Part shown: positions 50,539 to 61,472 of the stretch, one piece after another | Numbering within the stretch: the first letter of the stretch is position 1 | Layout: every line of letters begins with the position of its first letter | Assembly (NCBI RefSeq): GCF_014200045.1 | Contig: NZ_JACHOV010000010.1 | Coordinates: 62,001 to 126,000, forward strand | From: Rhizorhapis suberifaciens | Lineage (GTDB): Bacteria > Pseudomonadota > Alphaproteobacteria > Sphingomonadales > Sphingomonadaceae | DNA: 64,000 bases | Direction: 5' to 3' | Position numbers and translations under genes: made by a program | The notes under the pieces: generated by a model | Told to the model about the DNA's origin: nothing | The model's database searches: none | What the model saw: the letters and a program-made list of their open reading frames with translations, nothing else

Positions 50539-51294
50539 TCAAACAAACATTTCTTGTTCAACGCGGCGCTCGGTCGCGATCATCTTGCGCGCGGCAACCG
50601 TCGCCTCGTAGATCGCCAGCTTGTCGGCGAGTTTGGCTTCAAAGGCTGCGGCCGCCGTCTCGATGGCTTCCTGAATGACCGGATCGGCATGCACCCGCAT
50701 GACCGCCATGGGCAGGCCGCCACTGTACGAAACGAGGTCGCACCAGGCGCGCTCTGTCACGAGCATTCCGGTCTGGCACTGGATCACGTAATCGGCGGGG
50801 ATTGTCTCACCCTTGTCCACGCCGACATTCTCGACGATCGTCTGCACCTGATATTTCTGCCGGCGGCTCTTGCATTCAATCAGGCCATCGTCACCGACCA
50901 ACGCATCCGGGCTGTAACCGATCGTAAAGCCCCATTTATCGTTGGTGATGAACCCAATTTCTTTCACCGGCGCGAAATTCTTGTGGTAGAGCATCCGGGC
51001 CTCGGTCTCGTCATCACGCCCGCGCAGCATGTCATCTGAGATGTAGTGCGGCTCGACATAGCCGGTGATGCGCTGGCCAAGGAGTTCGTAAAGGTGCGCG
51101 CGCGTCTTGTCGTTGTCAGCAACCTTGAGCGTCGGCGTGATAATCAATTTCATCTCGCTCGCCGTGAGTAAGCCGCAGCGCTCAGCCAGCCATTCATCCG
51201 AACCCTGGATCAAGTCTTTGTGATAGGTGATGTGGGAGCCAGCAAGGGGAAGGTTATTGGCCTTCCCCCCTCCCTGCTGAGAAACTTGGGTCAC
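50539..51294 (-). CDS. YqaJ/lambda-type recombination exonuclease
   Basis: A 251-residue nuclease of the YqaJ/lambda Exo group. Motifs are GSDEWLAERCGLLTASE (28-47 region), GRDDETEARMLY, and the catalytic Asp130 and Glu140-Cys-Lys142 (GYSPDALVGDDGLIECKS). It would degrade one strand of double-stranded DNA ends for annealing-type recombination. The stop is 12 bases from the 218-residue partner, and its start overlaps the Cys-repeat gene by four bases. Confidence 0.92.
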   Translation of the reverse strand: MTQVSQQGGGKANNLPLAGSHITYHKDLIQGSDEWLAERCGLLTASEMKLIITPTLKVADNDKTRAHLYELLGQRITGYVEPHYISDDMLRGRDDETEARMLYHKNFAPVKEIGFITNDKWGFTIGYSPDALVGDDGLIECKSRRQKYQVQTIVENVGVDKGETIPADYVIQCQTGMLVTERAWCDLVSYSGGLPMAVMRVHADPVIQEAIETAAAAFEAKLADKLAIYEATVAARKMIATERRVEQEMFV

Positions 51295-52070
51295 AGTGCG
51301 GCCTCTGCCTCTGCAAGCTTGCGCATGTCCTCAAGCGCGGCTTCGTTGCCGTCATAGAAGCGGCACGGATTGATCGGCGCTCCGCTTTCACGGTAGATCA
51401 GCATTGCTGCCAGTTCAGTGTTGAAGCGCGTTTCGAGCGCCTTACCCTTCTCACCAGCCAGAGTAACCACCCAACCGGCCCGGCAATGCGTCGTCTCGCA
51501 GGTGTGCCACGTATCCATATCCAAGGCGTTTGGCTGCGATACGGCGGCGTAGACCTTGCTATGAATGTTATCGATGGTCGGTATTTCAACCGACTCGCTG
51601 GCGGTGCCTTTTTTGTCCGAGCAGTCCGAGCAGCGCGAGCAGTACGAGCAGTCCGAGCAGTCCGAGCAGTACGAGCAGCGCGAGCAGTCCGAGCAGTCCG
51701 AGCAGTACGAGCAGCGCGAGCAGTCCGAGCAGCGCGAGCAGTACGAGCAGTACGAGCAGCGCGAGCAGTGCGAGCAGCCCGAGCAGTCCGAGCAGTCCGA
51801 GCAGTACGAGCAGTCCGAGCAGTCCGAGCAGCGCGAGCAGTCCGAGCAGTCCGAGCAGCGCGAGCAGTCCGAGCAGTCCGAGCAGTCCGAGCAGTACGAG
51901 CAGTCCGAGCAGTCCGAGCAGTCCGAGCAGTACGAGCAGTTGATACAATTATCGCAATCGATCAGCGAACGAATTGCTTCTTCTGCGGCCTCACGCGAAC
52001 CATAGCGCGCGATCTCATTGCGGTTGCCGCGCTCATCCCAAAGCCAGCCTTCCTTTTCGGTGATGTTCAT
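51291..52070 (-). CDS. Phage protein with 38 Cys-X-X triplets
   Basis: A 259-residue protein in three parts. N-terminal 38 residues (MNITEKEGWLWDERGNRNE...). Residues 39-152: 38 consecutive triplets starting with Cys, almost all Cys-Ser-Asp, Cys-Ser-Tyr or Cys-Ser-Arg. C-terminal domain of about 100 residues (TWHTCETTHCRAGWVV, ETRFNTELAAMLIYRESG) that looks like a normally folded phage domain. A cysteine at every third residue would suit a stack of disulfides or metal sites along a helix. It overlaps the exonuclease gene by four bases. Function unknown. Confidence 0.8.
   Translation of the reverse strand: MNITEKEGWLWDERGNRNEIARYGSREAAEEAIRSLIDCDNCINCSYCSDCSDCSDCSYCSDCSDCSDCSRCSDCSDCSRCSDCSDCSYCSDCSDCSGCSHCSRCSYCSYCSRCSDCSRCSYCSDCSDCSRCSYCSDCSDCSYCSRCSDCSDKKGTASESVEIPTIDNIHSKVYAAVSQPNALDMDTWHTCETTHCRAGWVVTLAGEKGKALETRFNTELAAMLIYRESGAPINPCRFYDGNEAALEDMRKLAEAEAAL
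51615..51956. repeat. 9-bp tandem repeat array inside the Cys-rich gene
   Basis: On the plus strand the unit is nnCGAGCAG-like, in which GAGCAG is constant and three bases vary (mainly TCC, TAC or CGC, giving GAGCAGTCC, GAGCAGTAC, GAGCAGCGC). On the coding strand this is TGC TCG NNC, where NNC is GAC, TAC, CGC and rarely CAC or GGC. About 36 units preserve frame. Slippage would add or remove whole triplets without a frameshift. Confidence 0.95.
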
Positions 52071-53123: not shown

Positions 53124-53783
53124 TTAAGCCTCCACACGGTCCAGAGCGGAGACCATGCCGTCCGCAAGACGCTTCCAGGCGTAGGCGTAGGCGTAGGCGT
53201 AGGCGTCGGCGTAGGCGTAGGCGTTGGCGTTGGCGTTGGCGTCGGCGTCGGCGTAGGCGTAGGCGTAGGCGTAGGCGTCGGCGTAGGCGTAGGCGTTGGC
53301 GTTGGCGTCGGCGTCGGCGCTTTTCAGAACTGGTCGCCACTCATCTGCGCCGGTCTTCTCGCCAGCCAAGGCCCGCTGGTGAAGCGCCTGCAATGCCTTG
53401 TGCGGGGCTGTATCGCGTTTGCGGATTTCAGAAGCTTCAATGCCCAACTGGCAGACCGTGTTTGCATGCCAATCGTGAATGACGCTGAAGGGAACATTGC
53501 CGCCGATCCGGTCGAGCGCCTTGTAGAAGCGTAGGCCCCAGTCCTTGGCATCGTCGAACTTCTGCCGGTCGAAAAATCCGGGAACCATCTGTGCCAGCCA
53601 GCGCGGCATGATCGCCGCAGGGCATTGCGCAGGGCCGTCCACCACATCGCCCAGAACACCAAGCGCGCAAGCGAGCTGCCGTCCGTCCAGTTCGGTGTGC
53701 CACTGCTGTTGGATAAGGCGCTCTTCGTTGAAAGCCGCTTCGTAGCGGGCAAGAGCTTCAGCGGTCGTCGTCGCAATGTCCAT
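53124..53783 (-). CDS. Phage protein with Ala-(Tyr/Asp/Asn) dipeptide array
   Basis: A 219-residue protein, first gene of the leftward operon. The N-terminal about 155 residues look like a normal globular domain ([51 protein letters not shown]). Then come about 23 consecutive Ala-X dipeptides where X is Tyr, Asp or Asn, and a short helical tail ([17 protein letters not shown]). ATG 53783 is favoured: GGGGA lies six bases ahead of it, whereas the ATG at 53789 has almost no spacing. Function unknown. Confidence 0.78.
53178..53318. repeat. Hexanucleotide tandem array with a higher-order duplication
   Basis: A GTNGGC hexamer array (plus strand), with N = A, C or T. On the coding strand this is GCC NAC, giving Ala then Tyr, Asp or Asn. 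The order of units is itself duplicated: ADADANAN followed by [14 protein letters not shown] occurs twice, so a block of about 66-72 bp was copied after the basic array formed. Confidence 0.93.
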
Positions 53784-53825
53784 CTTCATTCCCCATCACC
53801 GGTTGGTGTCTATGGGGAAAGCATA

Positions 53826-57998: not shown

Positions 57999-58429
57999 TG
58001 GACGCGCTCGCATCCCTCCTGATTGAAGACGCCGCCGATCTAGATTGGTGGATCGATCCCAAGGACGCGGACCCGCGCGACGAGGTGACGCGGCAATCGG
58101 CGTTCATCCGGGATGCGCGCATTATCTGCCCGGCTGTGGACATCGTAGCCATCCCCAATGCCGCAAAACGCAGCCAGTGGGCGGCGCGCAAAGCCAAGCG
58201 CGAAGGTATGGTGGCCGGCGCGCTGGATTTGTTCTGCACCTGGCACTGCGGCGGTGTCGCCTTTCTGGAGTGGAAGGACGGCACCAAAATGCCGGACGCC
58301 AACCAGCGGGACCGGCTTAACCTATACACCCGCCAAGGTCATCTCTGTGGCGTCTTCCGGCAGGAGACGAGCGCGCTGGAGTTTCTGCGGCGGCATGGAG
58401 CGCCCTTCATTGACCGGAGGGGTTTATGA
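57998..58429 (+). CDS. VRR-NUC domain nuclease
   Basis: A 143-residue protein whose C-terminal two thirds is a VRR-NUC (PD-(D/E)XK) nuclease: Asp77 in GALDLFC, Glu91-Trp-Lys93 in VAFLEWKDG, and Gln103 (DANQRDRL). The segment AFIRDARIICPAVDIVAIPN is the expected first strand/helix. Phage VRR-NUC proteins act as structure-specific nucleases, including Holliday-junction resolution. Its position just before the replication ATPase fits a replication or recombination role. Confidence 0.88.
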   Translation: MDALASLLIEDAADLDWWIDPKDADPRDEVTRQSAFIRDARIICPAVDIVAIPNAAKRSQWAARKAKREGMVAGALDLFCTWHCGGVAFLEWKDGTKMPDANQRDRLNLYTRQGHLCGVFRQETSALEFLRRHGAPFIDRRGL

Positions 58430-59037
58430 CGGCGGACCTGTTCGATCGACAGGACGCGCTTGCTTGGGCGCGCGAGGTCAAGAACCCGCTCAACATCGAA
58501 ATGCAGGCCGCGAGTCAGCGTCTGCAATTGCGCCAGATGAACCTCTTGCGCGGGCTCGGCCTAAACGCGCCGGCACTCCTGACAGATAACATGATCGGCA
58601 CCGTCTCCACGGAAGTCCTCAACAAAGATTTCTGGCAGCAGGAGGAGAGTGGAAAGCCGATGCTCGTAGTGCCGCTCATTGAAGATGGGCAGACCATCGA
58701 CCTTATCGCCTTCGACCCGCTCGACCCCAATGGCTGGTATCTGAAGACCGGCCACGGTTTTGCGCTTGGGGCGGAAGCGATCACCGACGCGGTACAGGGA
58801 TGGGATGCCTCGGACCAGCGCCTGCGAATGCATGCCACACCATTGGACTGGCTGCGCAGCGGCTGCGATGGCTGTTGCGTGGTGCAATGGACTGATGAGG
58901 CCCGCGCCGAAGTGCGCCACGTCCGGACTCTGGAAGTTTCCAGTCCGACGCTTGCCCGCGCGCTCCGCCTCGAACTGACGCGCCCGCCGCGCATCCCTGA
59001 AATTGAAGTGAAGGGGATGCGTTCCCGTGCCGCGTAA
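58426..59037 (+). CDS. Replication-associated phage protein (unknown)
   Basis: A 203-residue protein overlapping the nuclease gene and the RepA-like gene. A region of beta strands (KPMLVVPLIEDGQTIDLIAF, DPLDPNGWYLKTGHG) and Cys residues (SGCDGCCVVQWTDEA) is visible; the N-terminus is helical. It could be a small primase-like or zinc-binding replication factor, but I see no clear primase or Toprim signature. Confidence 0.65.
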   Translation: MTADLFDRQDALAWAREVKNPLNIEMQAASQRLQLRQMNLLRGLGLNAPALLTDNMIGTVSTEVLNKDFWQQEESGKPMLVVPLIEDGQTIDLIAFDPLDPNGWYLKTGHGFALGAEAITDAVQGWDASDQRLRMHATPLDWLRSGCDGCCVVQWTDEARAEVRHVRTLEVSSPTLARALRLELTRPPRIPEIEVKGMRSRAA

Positions 59038-60538
59038 TATTGAAGACGATCTTGAACTGGACGGTCCGCCCGCATGGATGGCGGAAGCAGAGGCCTCTCG
59101 CTTCATTGAGGAGCCGCGCGAACCTGCCCCGCCGCTGGCGCTAATCGACCCTGCTGCATGGCTCAACACAGAGCCCCCGGAGCGATCTTGGAAGGTCAAG
59201 GACTATATTCCTGACCGCCAGGCCACCCTCCTGACCGGCAAGGGCGCAGCGGGCAAGTCTCTTGTCTCGCAGCAACAATGCACCTGCGTTGCGCTTGGCC
59301 TGCCGTTCCTGGGCATAGAGACGACGCAGACGGTTGCAATCTACATCACCTGCGAAGACGACGCGGACGAACTCCACCGCCGCCAGAAGGCGATATGTGA
59401 TAGTCTGGGCGTCAGCCTTGAAGATCTCAGCGGCAAGCTTTTCCTGCTGTCCCTGCAGGGCGAAATGAACAACGAGCTTGCCACCTTCGACCGTGAAGGC
59501 CGCATGTTCATCGGGCCGCGCTACGAACAGATTGTTGCGGCATGCGAGGCATCGGGCGCTGGATTCGTCGTCCTCGATAATACCGCCCACACCTATTCCG
59601 GGAACGAGAACGACCGGCACCAGGTCGCCGGTTTCATCAACCTGTGCAACCGTCTCGCGCTTCATATCAATGGCGCGGTTGTCATTGTCGGCCACCCCAA
59701 CAAGGCCGGAGACAGTTATTCCGGATCGACGGCCTGGGAAAATCAGGTCCGCTCACGCCTGTTCATGGAGATCCCGGTCAACGACGAAGGCGTCGCCACA
59801 GACCCCGATGCACGTGTCATGCGCCGCGAAAAATCCAACTATGCCCAGCGTGGCGGCGACCTCAATTTCATATGGTTCAAGGGGGCTTTTGTTCTGCCTG
59901 AATCCATCCCGGAAGAGAGCCGCTTCAACGTCGATGGCATCGCCCAGGCATCACTTGAAAACGACCTGTTCCTCAGGTGCCTGGCAAAGGCCGCAGTGAC
60001 GAAGCGCGCGGTCAGTCACGTCAATGGCATCAACTATGCCCCCCGCATATTCGCCCATATGCCAGAGGCAAAAGGGGCGGGTGAGAGCGCCTTCCGGGGG
60101 GCCATGGAACGCCTCATCAGTTTGGGCAAAATTGAACTCGACGCCCCACTCTGGAGAGGGCCAAATCGGGTGATGAAGCATGGAATTATCGCCACCAACA
60201 CTCAAAATAATCTGCACGAACCCCCCTTAGAAAATGGCGGAAAACCGTGCACCAACCCTGCACGAACCCCCTGCACCGACCCGCACAAACCCCACTCCCA
60301 AGTCATTGAAAACATTGCACCGACCCTGCACTGCACGAACCCCTATATAGATAAATCTATATACCCTGCCGGTGCCGCTGGGGCTCTACCGGCAGGAGGT
60401 GACTGGGAATCGAACCCGCTGTTGCGCCCCTTGTCCGAGGTGAAGCGCGACACTCCAGAGTGGATCGATGAGGCACCCCCGATTGGTGAGGATGACACCT
60501 ATTTCGATTTTGACCGGGGAGATGACCATGCCCCCTAA
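59027..60538 (+). CDS. RepA-like hexameric ATPase/helicase (phage replication initiator)
   Basis: A 503-residue protein of the RepA/DnaB-like RecA fold: Walker A GKGAAGKS at 71-78 (QATLLTGKGAAGKSLVSQ), Walker B in GFVVLDNTAHTYSG, then NGAVVIVGHPNKAG and GSTAWENQVRSRLF. It starts with GTG at 59027, AAGGGG lying about 10 bases upstream. Residues 396-446 are a low-complexity Pro/Thr/Cys tract whose DNA carries seven direct repeats and an AT-rich palindrome, a probable replication origin inside the gene. It probably unwinds phage DNA at that origin. Confidence 0.85.
   Translation: MPRNIEDDLELDGPPAWMAEAEASRFIEEPREPAPPLALIDPAAWLNTEPPERSWKVKDYIPDRQATLLTGKGAAGKSLVSQQQCTCVALGLPFLGIETTQTVAIYITCEDDADELHRRQKAICDSLGVSLEDLSGKLFLLSLQGEMNNELATFDREGRMFIGPRYEQIVAACEASGAGFVVLDNTAHTYSGNENDRHQVAGFINLCNRLALHINGAVVIVGHPNKAGDSYSGSTAWENQVRSRLFMEIPVNDEGVATDPDARVMRREKSNYAQRGGDLNFIWFKGAFVLPESIPEESRFNVDGIAQASLENDLFLRCLAKAAVTKRAVSHVNGINYAPRIFAHMPEAKGAGESAFRGAMERLISLGKIELDAPLWRGPNRVMKHGIIATNTQNNLHEPPLENGGKPCTNPARTPCTDPHKPHSQVIENIAPTLHCTNPYIDKSIYPAGAAGALPAGGDWESNPLLRPLSEVKRDTPEWIDEAPPIGEDDTYFDFDRGDDHAP
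60213..60363. other. Probable phage replication origin (iterons and AT-rich palindrome)
   Basis: Seven direct repeats related to TGCAC[G/C][A/G]ACCC[C] begin at 60213, 60248, 60259, 60272, 60282, 60316 and 60332. The last runs into a perfect inverted repeat, TATATAGAT-AA-ATCTATATA (60344-60363), the most AT-rich short stretch in the neighbourhood. Iterons followed by an AT-rich segment inside the coding sequence of the initiator is the layout of lambda ori in gene O. Confidence 0.65.
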
Positions 60539-60713
60539 CCCCGGCTTCAACCCCTTCGCCACCCAGGACAATGCTCCCATGTGTGACCTGAAATACCGCA
60601 ACGAATGGATCGTTCGAAGGGTGAACCCGAACAAGTTTCGGTGGAAGCCGTGGAAACCAGGGTATCAGTCACCTGGGGATATCATCAGCTATCAGATTGC
60701 TAAGGGGGAATAG
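60528..60713 (+). CDS. Small hypothetical phage protein
   Basis: 61 residues (MPPNPGFNPFATQDNAPMCD..., ending YQSPGDIISYQIAKGE), rich in Pro, Asn and Trp/Arg. It overlaps the end of the RepA-like gene. ATG 60528 has GGGGAG at the right distance; ATG 60522 is in frame but too close. Not recognised. Confidence 0.55.
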   Translation: MPPNPGFNPFATQDNAPMCDLKYRNEWIVRRVNPNKFRWKPWKPGYQSPGDIISYQIAKGE

Positions 60714-60866
60714 ATGATCGCTTCCCATAAGGATAGATTGGGGCGGACCGTCAGGATAGACCCCTGGTGGCTCAGGTTTACATGGTGCCGCTACGGGTGG
60801 AGCCTCTACATATTGCGGCGGCGCATCGCCTGTAAGCCAATCGACTACACAAAGACACCACACTGA
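60714..60866 (+). CDS. Small basic phage protein
   Basis: 50 residues from the ATG immediately after the preceding stop (MIASHKDRLGRTVRIDPWWL ..., TWCRYGWSLYILRRRIACKP). Basic and aromatic, one marginal hydrophobic stretch. Supported only by spacing (GGGGGAA upstream) and lack of any other gene in the gap. Confidence 0.45.
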   Translation: MIASHKDRLGRTVRIDPWWLRFTWCRYGWSLYILRRRIACKPIDYTKTPH

Positions 60867-60886
60867 CAAACAACAGGGGTCGCACA

Positions 60887-61084
60887 ATGGCAAAGAGCCG
60901 CAGGGGTCGCAAACCCGGATTGATGACACATAGGCGCAGGCAGGTATTCCAAGAGATCGTAGCCAGTATGGCCAACGGCGAAACAGTTTCGCTTGCTAGC
61001 CTCGCGCGTCGTTGCGGCTTGTATGATTACCGACAAGCGCGCAGGATCATGAAGGATTTGGAGAAGATGGGCATCGTGAATTAA
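60887..61084 (+). CDS. Small winged/helix-turn-helix phage protein
   Basis: A 65-residue protein: basic N-terminus (MAKSRRGRKPGLMTHRRRQV) and a helix-turn-helix (SLASLARRCGLYDYRQARRI) ending MKDLEKMGIVN. Probably a DNA-binding regulator near the switch from replication to late genes. Confidence 0.65.
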   Translation: MAKSRRGRKPGLMTHRRRQVFQEIVASMANGETVSLASLARRCGLYDYRQARRIMKDLEKMGIVN

Positions 61085-61130
61085 TGTACCGTGCCCGTGC
61101 CTTGAAATATGCGCTAATTGGTTGCCCACC

Positions 61131-61472
61131 ATGCCAACGGCGCAAAAAGCAAAAGTAGCAAAAGCGACACGCGGATCAAAGCCGGGCGAGCGCCGTGGGG
61201 GCCGAGTTAAGGGTGTTCCGAACAAGGCCACTCGCGAAATTAAGGCGATCGCACAGCAGTATTCGGTTAAGGCTGTCAAGGCTCTCGTTGAGGTTATGGA
61301 GAGCGGGGAGAGTGAGGCGGCTCGCGTGTCTGCTGCCAACGCTATCCTTGACCGCGCATATGGAAAGCCCAGCCAGAGTGTCGAGCATAGCGGCGTTGAT
61401 GGTGCCCCGATCCAACATGCCTTAGATGTCAGTGATGAGGTTCTCGCCTCCATAGCGTTGGGCAAAAAGTAA
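61131..61472 (+). CDS. Terminase small subunit-like protein
   Basis: A 113-residue protein directly in front of, and overlapping, the large terminase gene. The basic N-terminus (GSKPGERRGGRVKGVPNKAT) and helix REIKAIAQQYSVKAVKAL, then AANAILDRAYGKPSQSVEH, match DUF5681-type or short terminase small subunits that recognise phage DNA for packaging. ATG 61131 is chosen over a TTG three codons earlier. Confidence 0.75.
   Translation: MPTAQKAKVAKATRGSKPGERRGGRVKGVPNKATREIKAIAQQYSVKAVKALVEVMESGESEAARVSAANAILDRAYGKPSQSVEHSGVDGAPIQHALDVSDEVLASIALGKK

Follow-up and report, generated by a model that had tools for sequence, protein, structure and literature searches.

A repeat array and two hairpins at the end of a RepA-type helicase gene as the probable replication origin of a Rhizorhapis suberifaciens prophage

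Within a stretch of 64,000 nucleotides from Rhizorhapis suberifaciens (the window; contig NZ_JACHOV010000010.1, positions 62,001 to 126,000), a prophage helicase gene carries towards its 3' end a tract of short repeats that is followed by a palindrome, which raises the question of whether this tract exists for the protein that it encodes or for the DNA itself. A first-pass annotation had suggested a probable phage origin in a RepA-like gene. Our analysis supports this suggestion, origin function being what we infer from it, and judging from the sequence patterns described below, the array together with its two hairpins is very probably the place where copying of the prophage DNA starts.

The gene (59027-60538, forward strand) encodes a protein of 503 amino acids that comprises an AAA_25 helicase domain, a winged helix (WH), and a disordered tail containing the array. 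AAA_25 was matched at residues 34-229 (Pfam, E 5.5e-37), and RSF1010 RepA (1g8y) was found as a profile match of the same protein (E 3.1e-24). The top Foldseek matches of the AF2 model were 1nlf, 1olo, and 1g8y, so that RSF1010 RepA is the nearest solved relative with respect to both sequence profile and fold. By fold model and sequence, the gene product is classified as an RSF1010-RepA-type RecA-fold helicase, for which a hexamer is predicted. The C-terminal tail is predicted to be disordered, with an AF2 pLDDT below 50 over residues 403-502. Genes for the terminase large subunit and the portal lie downstream of the helicase gene in the same prophage. Immediately 5' of the helicase gene and overlapping its start, an ORF of 203 amino acids (58426-59034) is found, which remained unmatched in Pfam, PHROG, and NCBIfam (E up to 0.01) and whose product is possibly a partner of the helicase. 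Upstream of the replication genes, ORF 55805-56392 matches a phage DNA methyltransferase family (phrog_799). A primase of the window's prophage was not identified, and we count this absence against the reading of the locus as an origin.

The array itself (60213-60342, forward strand) consists of seven 11-bp units starting at 60213, 60248, 60259, 60272, 60282, 60316, and 60332, which are divided into three groups by gaps of 35 and 34 nt. All starts except 60282 carry the exact TGCACNNACCC, while CGCACAAACCC at 60282-60292 deviates by one mismatch and represents the seventh unit. The seven copies that had been noted initially are thus recovered as six exact units and one with a single mismatch, spanning 130 bases, and the residues assigned to them in the initiator (396-446) are the same ones that the tract encodes in ORF 59027-60538. 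A partial TGCAC is present at 60327, and the first gap contains the spacer GAAAATGGCGGAAAACCG (60230-60247, forward strand), to which similar strings occur in the gaps of some relatives. Across the 3.36-Mb genome, the TGCACNNACCC pattern was found at 18 places, six of them in the array, compared to seven places for the reversed control pattern. Within the 300 nt behind the WH, the best 9-mer (allowing up to 1 mismatch) reached 8 copies, including a degenerate one at 60193, whereas 200 dinucleotide-preserving shuffles of the same 300 nt yielded 4 copies at most. This copy count is not unique within the window, since 2 of 210 control windows scored higher (12 and 30 copies), as expected given two in-frame stretches of tandem repeats (51615-51940 and 53177-53319). 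The former contains 36 copies of a 9-bp repeat encoding CSDCSDCSY-type repeats in a minus-strand ORF (51291-52070); the latter contains about 24 copies of a 6-bp, protein-coding repeat in another minus-strand ORF (53124-53789). Both periods are divisible by three, unlike the iteron spacing, and the 9-bp repeat is for this reason regarded as a protein repeat.

The relatives compared here originate from viral contigs, from GTDB genomes, and from the family to which the host belongs. The starting set of 210 loci plus the window, 211 entries in all, lost 14 entries that fell short of the WH end and 3 with fewer than 200 nt behind the WH; the remaining 194 were collapsed at 90% identity to 147 non-redundant relatives, with L011, L035, and L141 falling into the window's cluster and counted once together with it. 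The array score was defined as the number of copies of some 9-mer within 300 nt behind the WH coding end. At least 5 copies were found in 102 of the 147 relatives, window included (0.73% of control windows of the same loci), at least 4 copies in 129 (4.8% of control windows), and 108 of 147 scored above every control window of their own locus. By this count, 18 of 147 have at most 3 units. The counter gives low scores to arrays of mixed units, as for L019 and L064, which both score 3. The unit varies among relatives and includes TGCACSRACCC, TGCGCYRACCC, CCGGAAACC, TTCCGAACC, CGCACAACG, TGCGGGNAAC, and TCCGATGACC, among others. Most records bear the names of sphingomonads, while others belong to further Alphaproteobacteria or, in a few cases, to MAGs with different names.

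The layout is present in a full prophage as well as in shorter elements. Many of the IMG/VR contigs L149-L183 (about 8-14 kb) carry rep, array, HNH, and terminase and look like small satellites, putatively of the capsid-forming PICI-like kind. In 4 distant relatives (L028, L031, L032, and L034), direct units seem, as read by eye, to precede the hairpin and inverted units to follow it, so that their layout is symmetric and the window's one-sided. A fused N-terminal module was detected by profile match in 37 of 147 relatives and an adjacent one in 2. The profile was built from five members and its Toprim-like label was given by eye; a Toprim-like identity is weakly supported by Pfam, as Toprim_3 appeared below the Pfam cut-off in 2 of 4 members scanned and the other 2 were without a match.

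If the repeats served the protein, they would be expected in one reading frame. This follows from the view that the repeats are a by-product of a low-complexity, Pro/Thr-rich tail acting as a linker, and indeed every unit lies in the open frame in 57 of the 102 arrays with at least 5 copies. However, a further 19 arrays are mixed and 26 lie wholly behind the stop codon, and coding units are distributed evenly over the three frames (133/130/129), with all three frames used in 48 of the 61 arrays that have at least 4 coding units. The spacing of neighboring units is about one helical turn and multiples thereof, and not divisible by three: distances of 10-13 nt (n = 316), 21-24 nt (n = 57), and 33-35 nt (n = 39) prevail over 14-20 nt (n = 35) and 25-32 nt (n = 16), with spacings below 9 excluded by the counting method. 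Furthermore, codon-position bias disappears within the array. For the pair formed by the window and L012, the differences at codon positions 1/2/3 amount to.14/.12/.46 in the helicase part compared to.20/.20/.20 in the array, and the loss is alike or weaker for window-L013, window-L020, and L012-L013, the test covering these 4 pairs of close relatives. Together with the predicted disorder of the tail, these results already contradict the linker reading, whose probability we regard as negligible. The earlier expectation that DNA function rather than protein function shaped the tract is thereby borne out by equal frames, non-coding arrays, and lost codon bias, and the alignment of homologs that had been recommended as a check reveals array DNA that persists and co-varies with the initiator, the peptide being immaterial.

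This co-variation can be assigned to one part of the initiator. For the 102 of 147 loci with at least 5 units, the distance between units correlated with WH distance (r = 0.458) more strongly than with helicase distance (r = 0.253). The partial correlation of unit and WH given the helicase was 0.397 (p = 0.001; null maximum 0.122), compared to 0.040 (p = 0.067) for unit and helicase given the WH. Protein segments before the WH gave r values of 0.07 to 0.29, while the first WH segment reached 0.444; such a stepwise rise at the WH border is unlike the slope that linkage alone would tend to give. It should be noted that the WH and the array are neighbors on the DNA, so that joint inheritance alone could account for part of the correlation. 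The nearest WH neighbor had the closer unit in 61 loci and the nearest helicase neighbor in 15, with the two neighbors being the same or tied in 26. L076 and L091 have similar helicases (distance 0.12), divergent WHs (0.62), and different units, whereas L181 and L060 have divergent helicases (0.64), similar WHs (0.15), and an identical unit. Pairs of this kind indicate that natural swaps of the helicase versus the WH plus unit exist in both directions. Across these comparisons, the unit sequence appears to track the WH and not the helicase, and we infer that the iterons are read by the helicase's own WH.

The proposed reader comprises about residues 296-391 (59912-60199, forward strand), as delimited by AF2, and is proposed as reader because of its co-variation with the unit. 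In the full-protein model, its pLDDT ranges from 86 to 98 in ten-residue blocks, and modeled alone the domain has a mean pLDDT of 90.2. The latter model gave winged-helix structural matches, the best VIA-align hit being the SAMD1 WH with DNA (Z 8.3, 71 aligned residues, rmsd 2.6), a result that identifies a winged helix and nothing narrower. The window's WH remained without a Pfam match (E up to 0.1), other members gave scattered weak ones, and Foldseek returned zero matches at E ≤ 0.001.

Directly behind the array, the perfect palindrome that had been noted earlier is present at 60344-60363 (TATATAGATAAATCTATATA, 20 nt, forward strand) and corresponds to hairpin 1, with stem TATATAGA and loop TAAA. 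It is followed at 60365-60396 (forward strand) by hairpin 2, a GC-rich stem-loop (CCTGCCGGTGCC...ACCGGCAGG), and both together fold at -14.6 kcal/mol with DNA parameters, compared to -6.3 ± 1.8 for 200 shuffles. Hairpin 2, like the two gaps of the array and the IHF-like core described below, goes beyond the features noted earlier. Hairpin 1 with a CTACG or TAAA loop was found in 76 of 129 arrays. When the first CTACG at most 90 nt from the last unit was taken, with no stem required, a stem of at least 4 pairs surrounded it in 45 of 55 loci, compared to 2 of 756 sites elsewhere in the same loci; for TAAA, the corresponding numbers are 30 of 40 and 5 of 871. As many as four kinds of pairs occur at a stem position, and stems range from all A-T to mostly G-C. 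Behind the 76 loci with hairpin 1, hairpin 2 was measured over the next 55 nt, where the mean fold was -23.9, compared to -15.4 for random windows of the same locus, with 46 of 76 below the 5th percentile. Loop class had no clear link to the fused N-terminal module (CTACG, 13 fused and 33 none found; TAAA, 11 and 19).

A loop that stays fixed while the stems vary freely speaks for a structure and not for a melting sequence or a site read in the duplex, and the loop of hairpin 1 would serve helicase entry or priming. An AT-rich melting site is not the best reading of the palindrome, and such a role is unsupported, since many relatives form the same hairpin with G-C stems. The AT-content plot that had been proposed as a check has no peak at the array: positions 60299-60365 are 58% AT, and with 60-nt windows elsewhere in the prophage reaching up to 67%, they are not the AT-richest. 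The cumulative GC skew across the prophage has its minimum at 52.5 kb, further lows up to 60 kb, and its maximum at 84.5 kb; it does not single out the array, and because it is confounded by gene direction, it supports neither side.

The second, 34-nt gap of the array contains an IHF-like core (YAAN4TTGA), CAAGTCATTGA, at 60299-60309 (forward strand), which is one mismatch from the full consensus YAAN4TTGATW. The published IHF consensus is TAAnnnnTTGATW / WATCAAnnnnTTR (PMC10380432). The motif was first noticed in these loci and then compared with this consensus, and the same loci underlie both steps. The full motif occurs in 19 of 129 array regions on the forward strand and in 0 of 129 on the other, with 0.13% and 0.34% in control windows; the core occurs in 31 of 129 and 6 of 129, respectively, with 1.8% in each control, leaving 98 of 129 arrays without even the core on the forward strand. 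The motif is concentrated in gaps of 32-38 nt (18 of 52, compared to 1 of 500 shorter gaps). In the 102 arrays, the 45 gaps of this length have a mean AT content of 0.483, compared to 0.387 for their loci, and many arrays have no gap in this range.

We consider it highly likely that 60213-60396 is the replication origin of the prophage, although the 18 relatives with at most 3 units and the 98 arrays without the IHF-like core count against it. From gene 59027-60538, a self-loading RSF1010-RepA-type helicase with a fused WH would be made, whose WH domains would bind the 11-bp iterons on one face of the DNA, about one turn apart. IHF would probably bend the DNA at the 34-nt gap and thereby unite the iteron groups. 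One or more helicase rings would then be seated next to the hairpins, where the strands would be opened and priming would start, with hairpin 1, whose loop is conserved, serving as a single-strand structure. Such an origin is housed in the sequence for the initiator's own disordered tail, so that the WH and the iterons would move as one cassette, with specificity changing jointly.

Two other readings assign a different function to the array. In the first, it is a packaging site (cos/pac), with the repeats bound by the small terminase encoded downstream, and the gene order is compatible with this, as a terS-like ORF starts at 61122 and terL (Pfam Terminase_6N/6C) at 61472, both downstream of the array. 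Moreover, of the 111 relatives whose sequence extends at least 2.5 kb downstream, 41 have an HNH family behind the array and 37 a terminase large subunit family; the families were defined by clustering, with a Pfam check of 3 loci per family. A phmmer search with the window's own proteins recovered TerL from no more than 3 of 111 loci (the window among them), as the terminase of many relatives belongs to another family. However, the unit tracks the WH and not the terminase (32 loci; partial r = 0.565, p = 0.001 for the WH compared to 0.131, p = 0.069 for the terminase given the WH), and in comparison with HNH (35 loci), the WH keeps 0.566 with an HNH residual of 0.157 (p = 0.047). The unit thus seems to follow terminase or HNH weakly, and the higher scores of the WH argue against a packaging site, with a small linkage signal remaining. 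In addition, window-like units in L078, L171, and L176 stand beside TerL_ATPase/TerL_nuclease instead of Terminase_6N/6C, and in the Wolbachia phage WO and plasmid pVL1_6, the repeats lie behind the helicase gene with no terminase named in the listed stretch. A packaging site is accordingly very unlikely.

In the second reading, the WH controls its own or downstream genes via the repeats, or hairpins in the transcript act as an RNA element. The DNA-binding domain does adjoin its presumed sites, and the sense strand has two stable hairpins. Nevertheless, consensus scans of 60100-61200 revealed no sigma-70-like promoter and no terminator-like site, of which few are expected by chance as well, and an Rfam scan (E up to 0.1) was without a match. 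Helical phasing and co-variation with the WH are signs of duplex DNA, and the array stays with the helicase although the downstream genes vary. As an explanation of the locus, an operator or RNA element is therefore very unlikely, while a regulatory role in addition to origin function is possible.

Further support for the array as a replication origin comes from plasmids and the Wolbachia phage WO. The circular plasmid pVL1_6 of Methylobacterium indicum (31.5 kb) has genes for a toprim protein and a RepA-family helicase, with repeats directly after the stop codon; a ParA gene is present, and no other initiator is named among its 39 listed genes. The circular, phage-like Caenibius p1 (38.1 kb) has an array of TTGCGGAAGT and the hairpin CTCCCCCTACGGGGGAG behind an AAA ATPase gene, and its gene list, too, names no further replication initiator. 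Since the two proteins are distantly related (28.6% and 27.4% identity across roughly half of the query), many genes are hypothetical, and the PLSDB gene lists are incomplete, these replicons provide support and not proof. In the Wolbachia phage WO, repeats lie directly behind the gene of a RepA-like ATPase; the 12 genes listed around it include no terminase. In Rhodoferax phage P26218, CTGCTACAAC repeats start about 290 nt behind the RepA gene, past one small gene, with the terminase farther downstream.

The locus shares individual features with several known systems. In the lambda ori, iterons lie mid-gene inside the coding sequence of gene O, and O is not a helicase. The initial comparison with lambda, which assumed the same logic with an unrelated initiator, holds insofar as the iterons are inside the coding sequence of the initiator; however, the initiator is here a helicase and the array lies at the 3' end of its gene, so that the nearest parallel is the rep-ori of SaPI/PICI, located behind a helicase-initiator. 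RSF1010 has a RepC initiator, a RepB' primase, and an oriV with ssi hairpins, and IncQ iterons are long, about 20 bp, and read by the separate RepC. Common to RSF1010 and the present locus are the RepA-type helicase and the occurrence of iterons together with hairpins, whereas the units here are 11 bp long, the proposed reader is a WH fused to the helicase, and the origin lies behind the gene.

In SaPI/PICI, the origin is located directly behind the gene of a self-loading helicase, whose C-terminal domain binds the iterons (PMC7581432, PMC6092414). Here, too, the gene of the initiator helicase, or the folded part of it, is directly followed by short repeats (102 of 147 relatives). The C-terminal WH co-varies with the unit and is predicted to bind it. 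In contrast, the helicase is of the AAA_25/RSF1010-RepA type instead of DUF927 or D5/Primase_C, the array overlaps coding sequence, and the element is a full prophage with its own terminase large subunit and portal, not a helper-dependent satellite. The one AT-rich block between two iteron sets appears to be replaced here by a hairpin with a conserved loop and, in some relatives, an IHF-like site. Because of the different helicase type and the full prophage, the locus is not counted as a SaPI/PICI member. pRN1/BIP-1 has a multidomain replication protein with a winged helix and a required stem-loop behind the replication gene (required in pRN1) that is kept in shape, not in sequence (PMC4234260). 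A winged helix in the replication protein and a stem-loop 3' of the gene are thus common to both, while pRN1/BIP-1 differs in its AEP primase, SF3 helicase, and stem-loop of about 100 nt, with no iteron origin reported there. By analogy, the present case would resemble SaPI/PICI in its working, with pRN1 features.

No description of the helicase-WH-array layout was found in the open-licence literature. We tentatively propose, with a little less than even confidence, that the locus belongs to a widespread and apparently undescribed class of self-loading replicons with an RSF1010-RepA-type helicase, an exchangeable WH, and an origin cassette at the gene end. The WH and iterons would be swapped between helicases as one module, giving each phage or satellite its own replication specificity, and the conserved-loop hairpin, with a stem of A-T pairs alone or largely of G-C pairs, would provide a dedicated single-strand structure at which the helicase enters or priming begins, and would not be a melting site. 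A SaPI/PICI-like layout occurs here with another helicase type. With more than 100 natural pairs of WH and unit, the recognition code of an origin-binding domain can be tested at once, and the hairpin with fixed loop and free stem is a clean target for studying how self-loading helicases open DNA. Furthermore, these rep-ori cassettes could serve genera for which few vectors are available.
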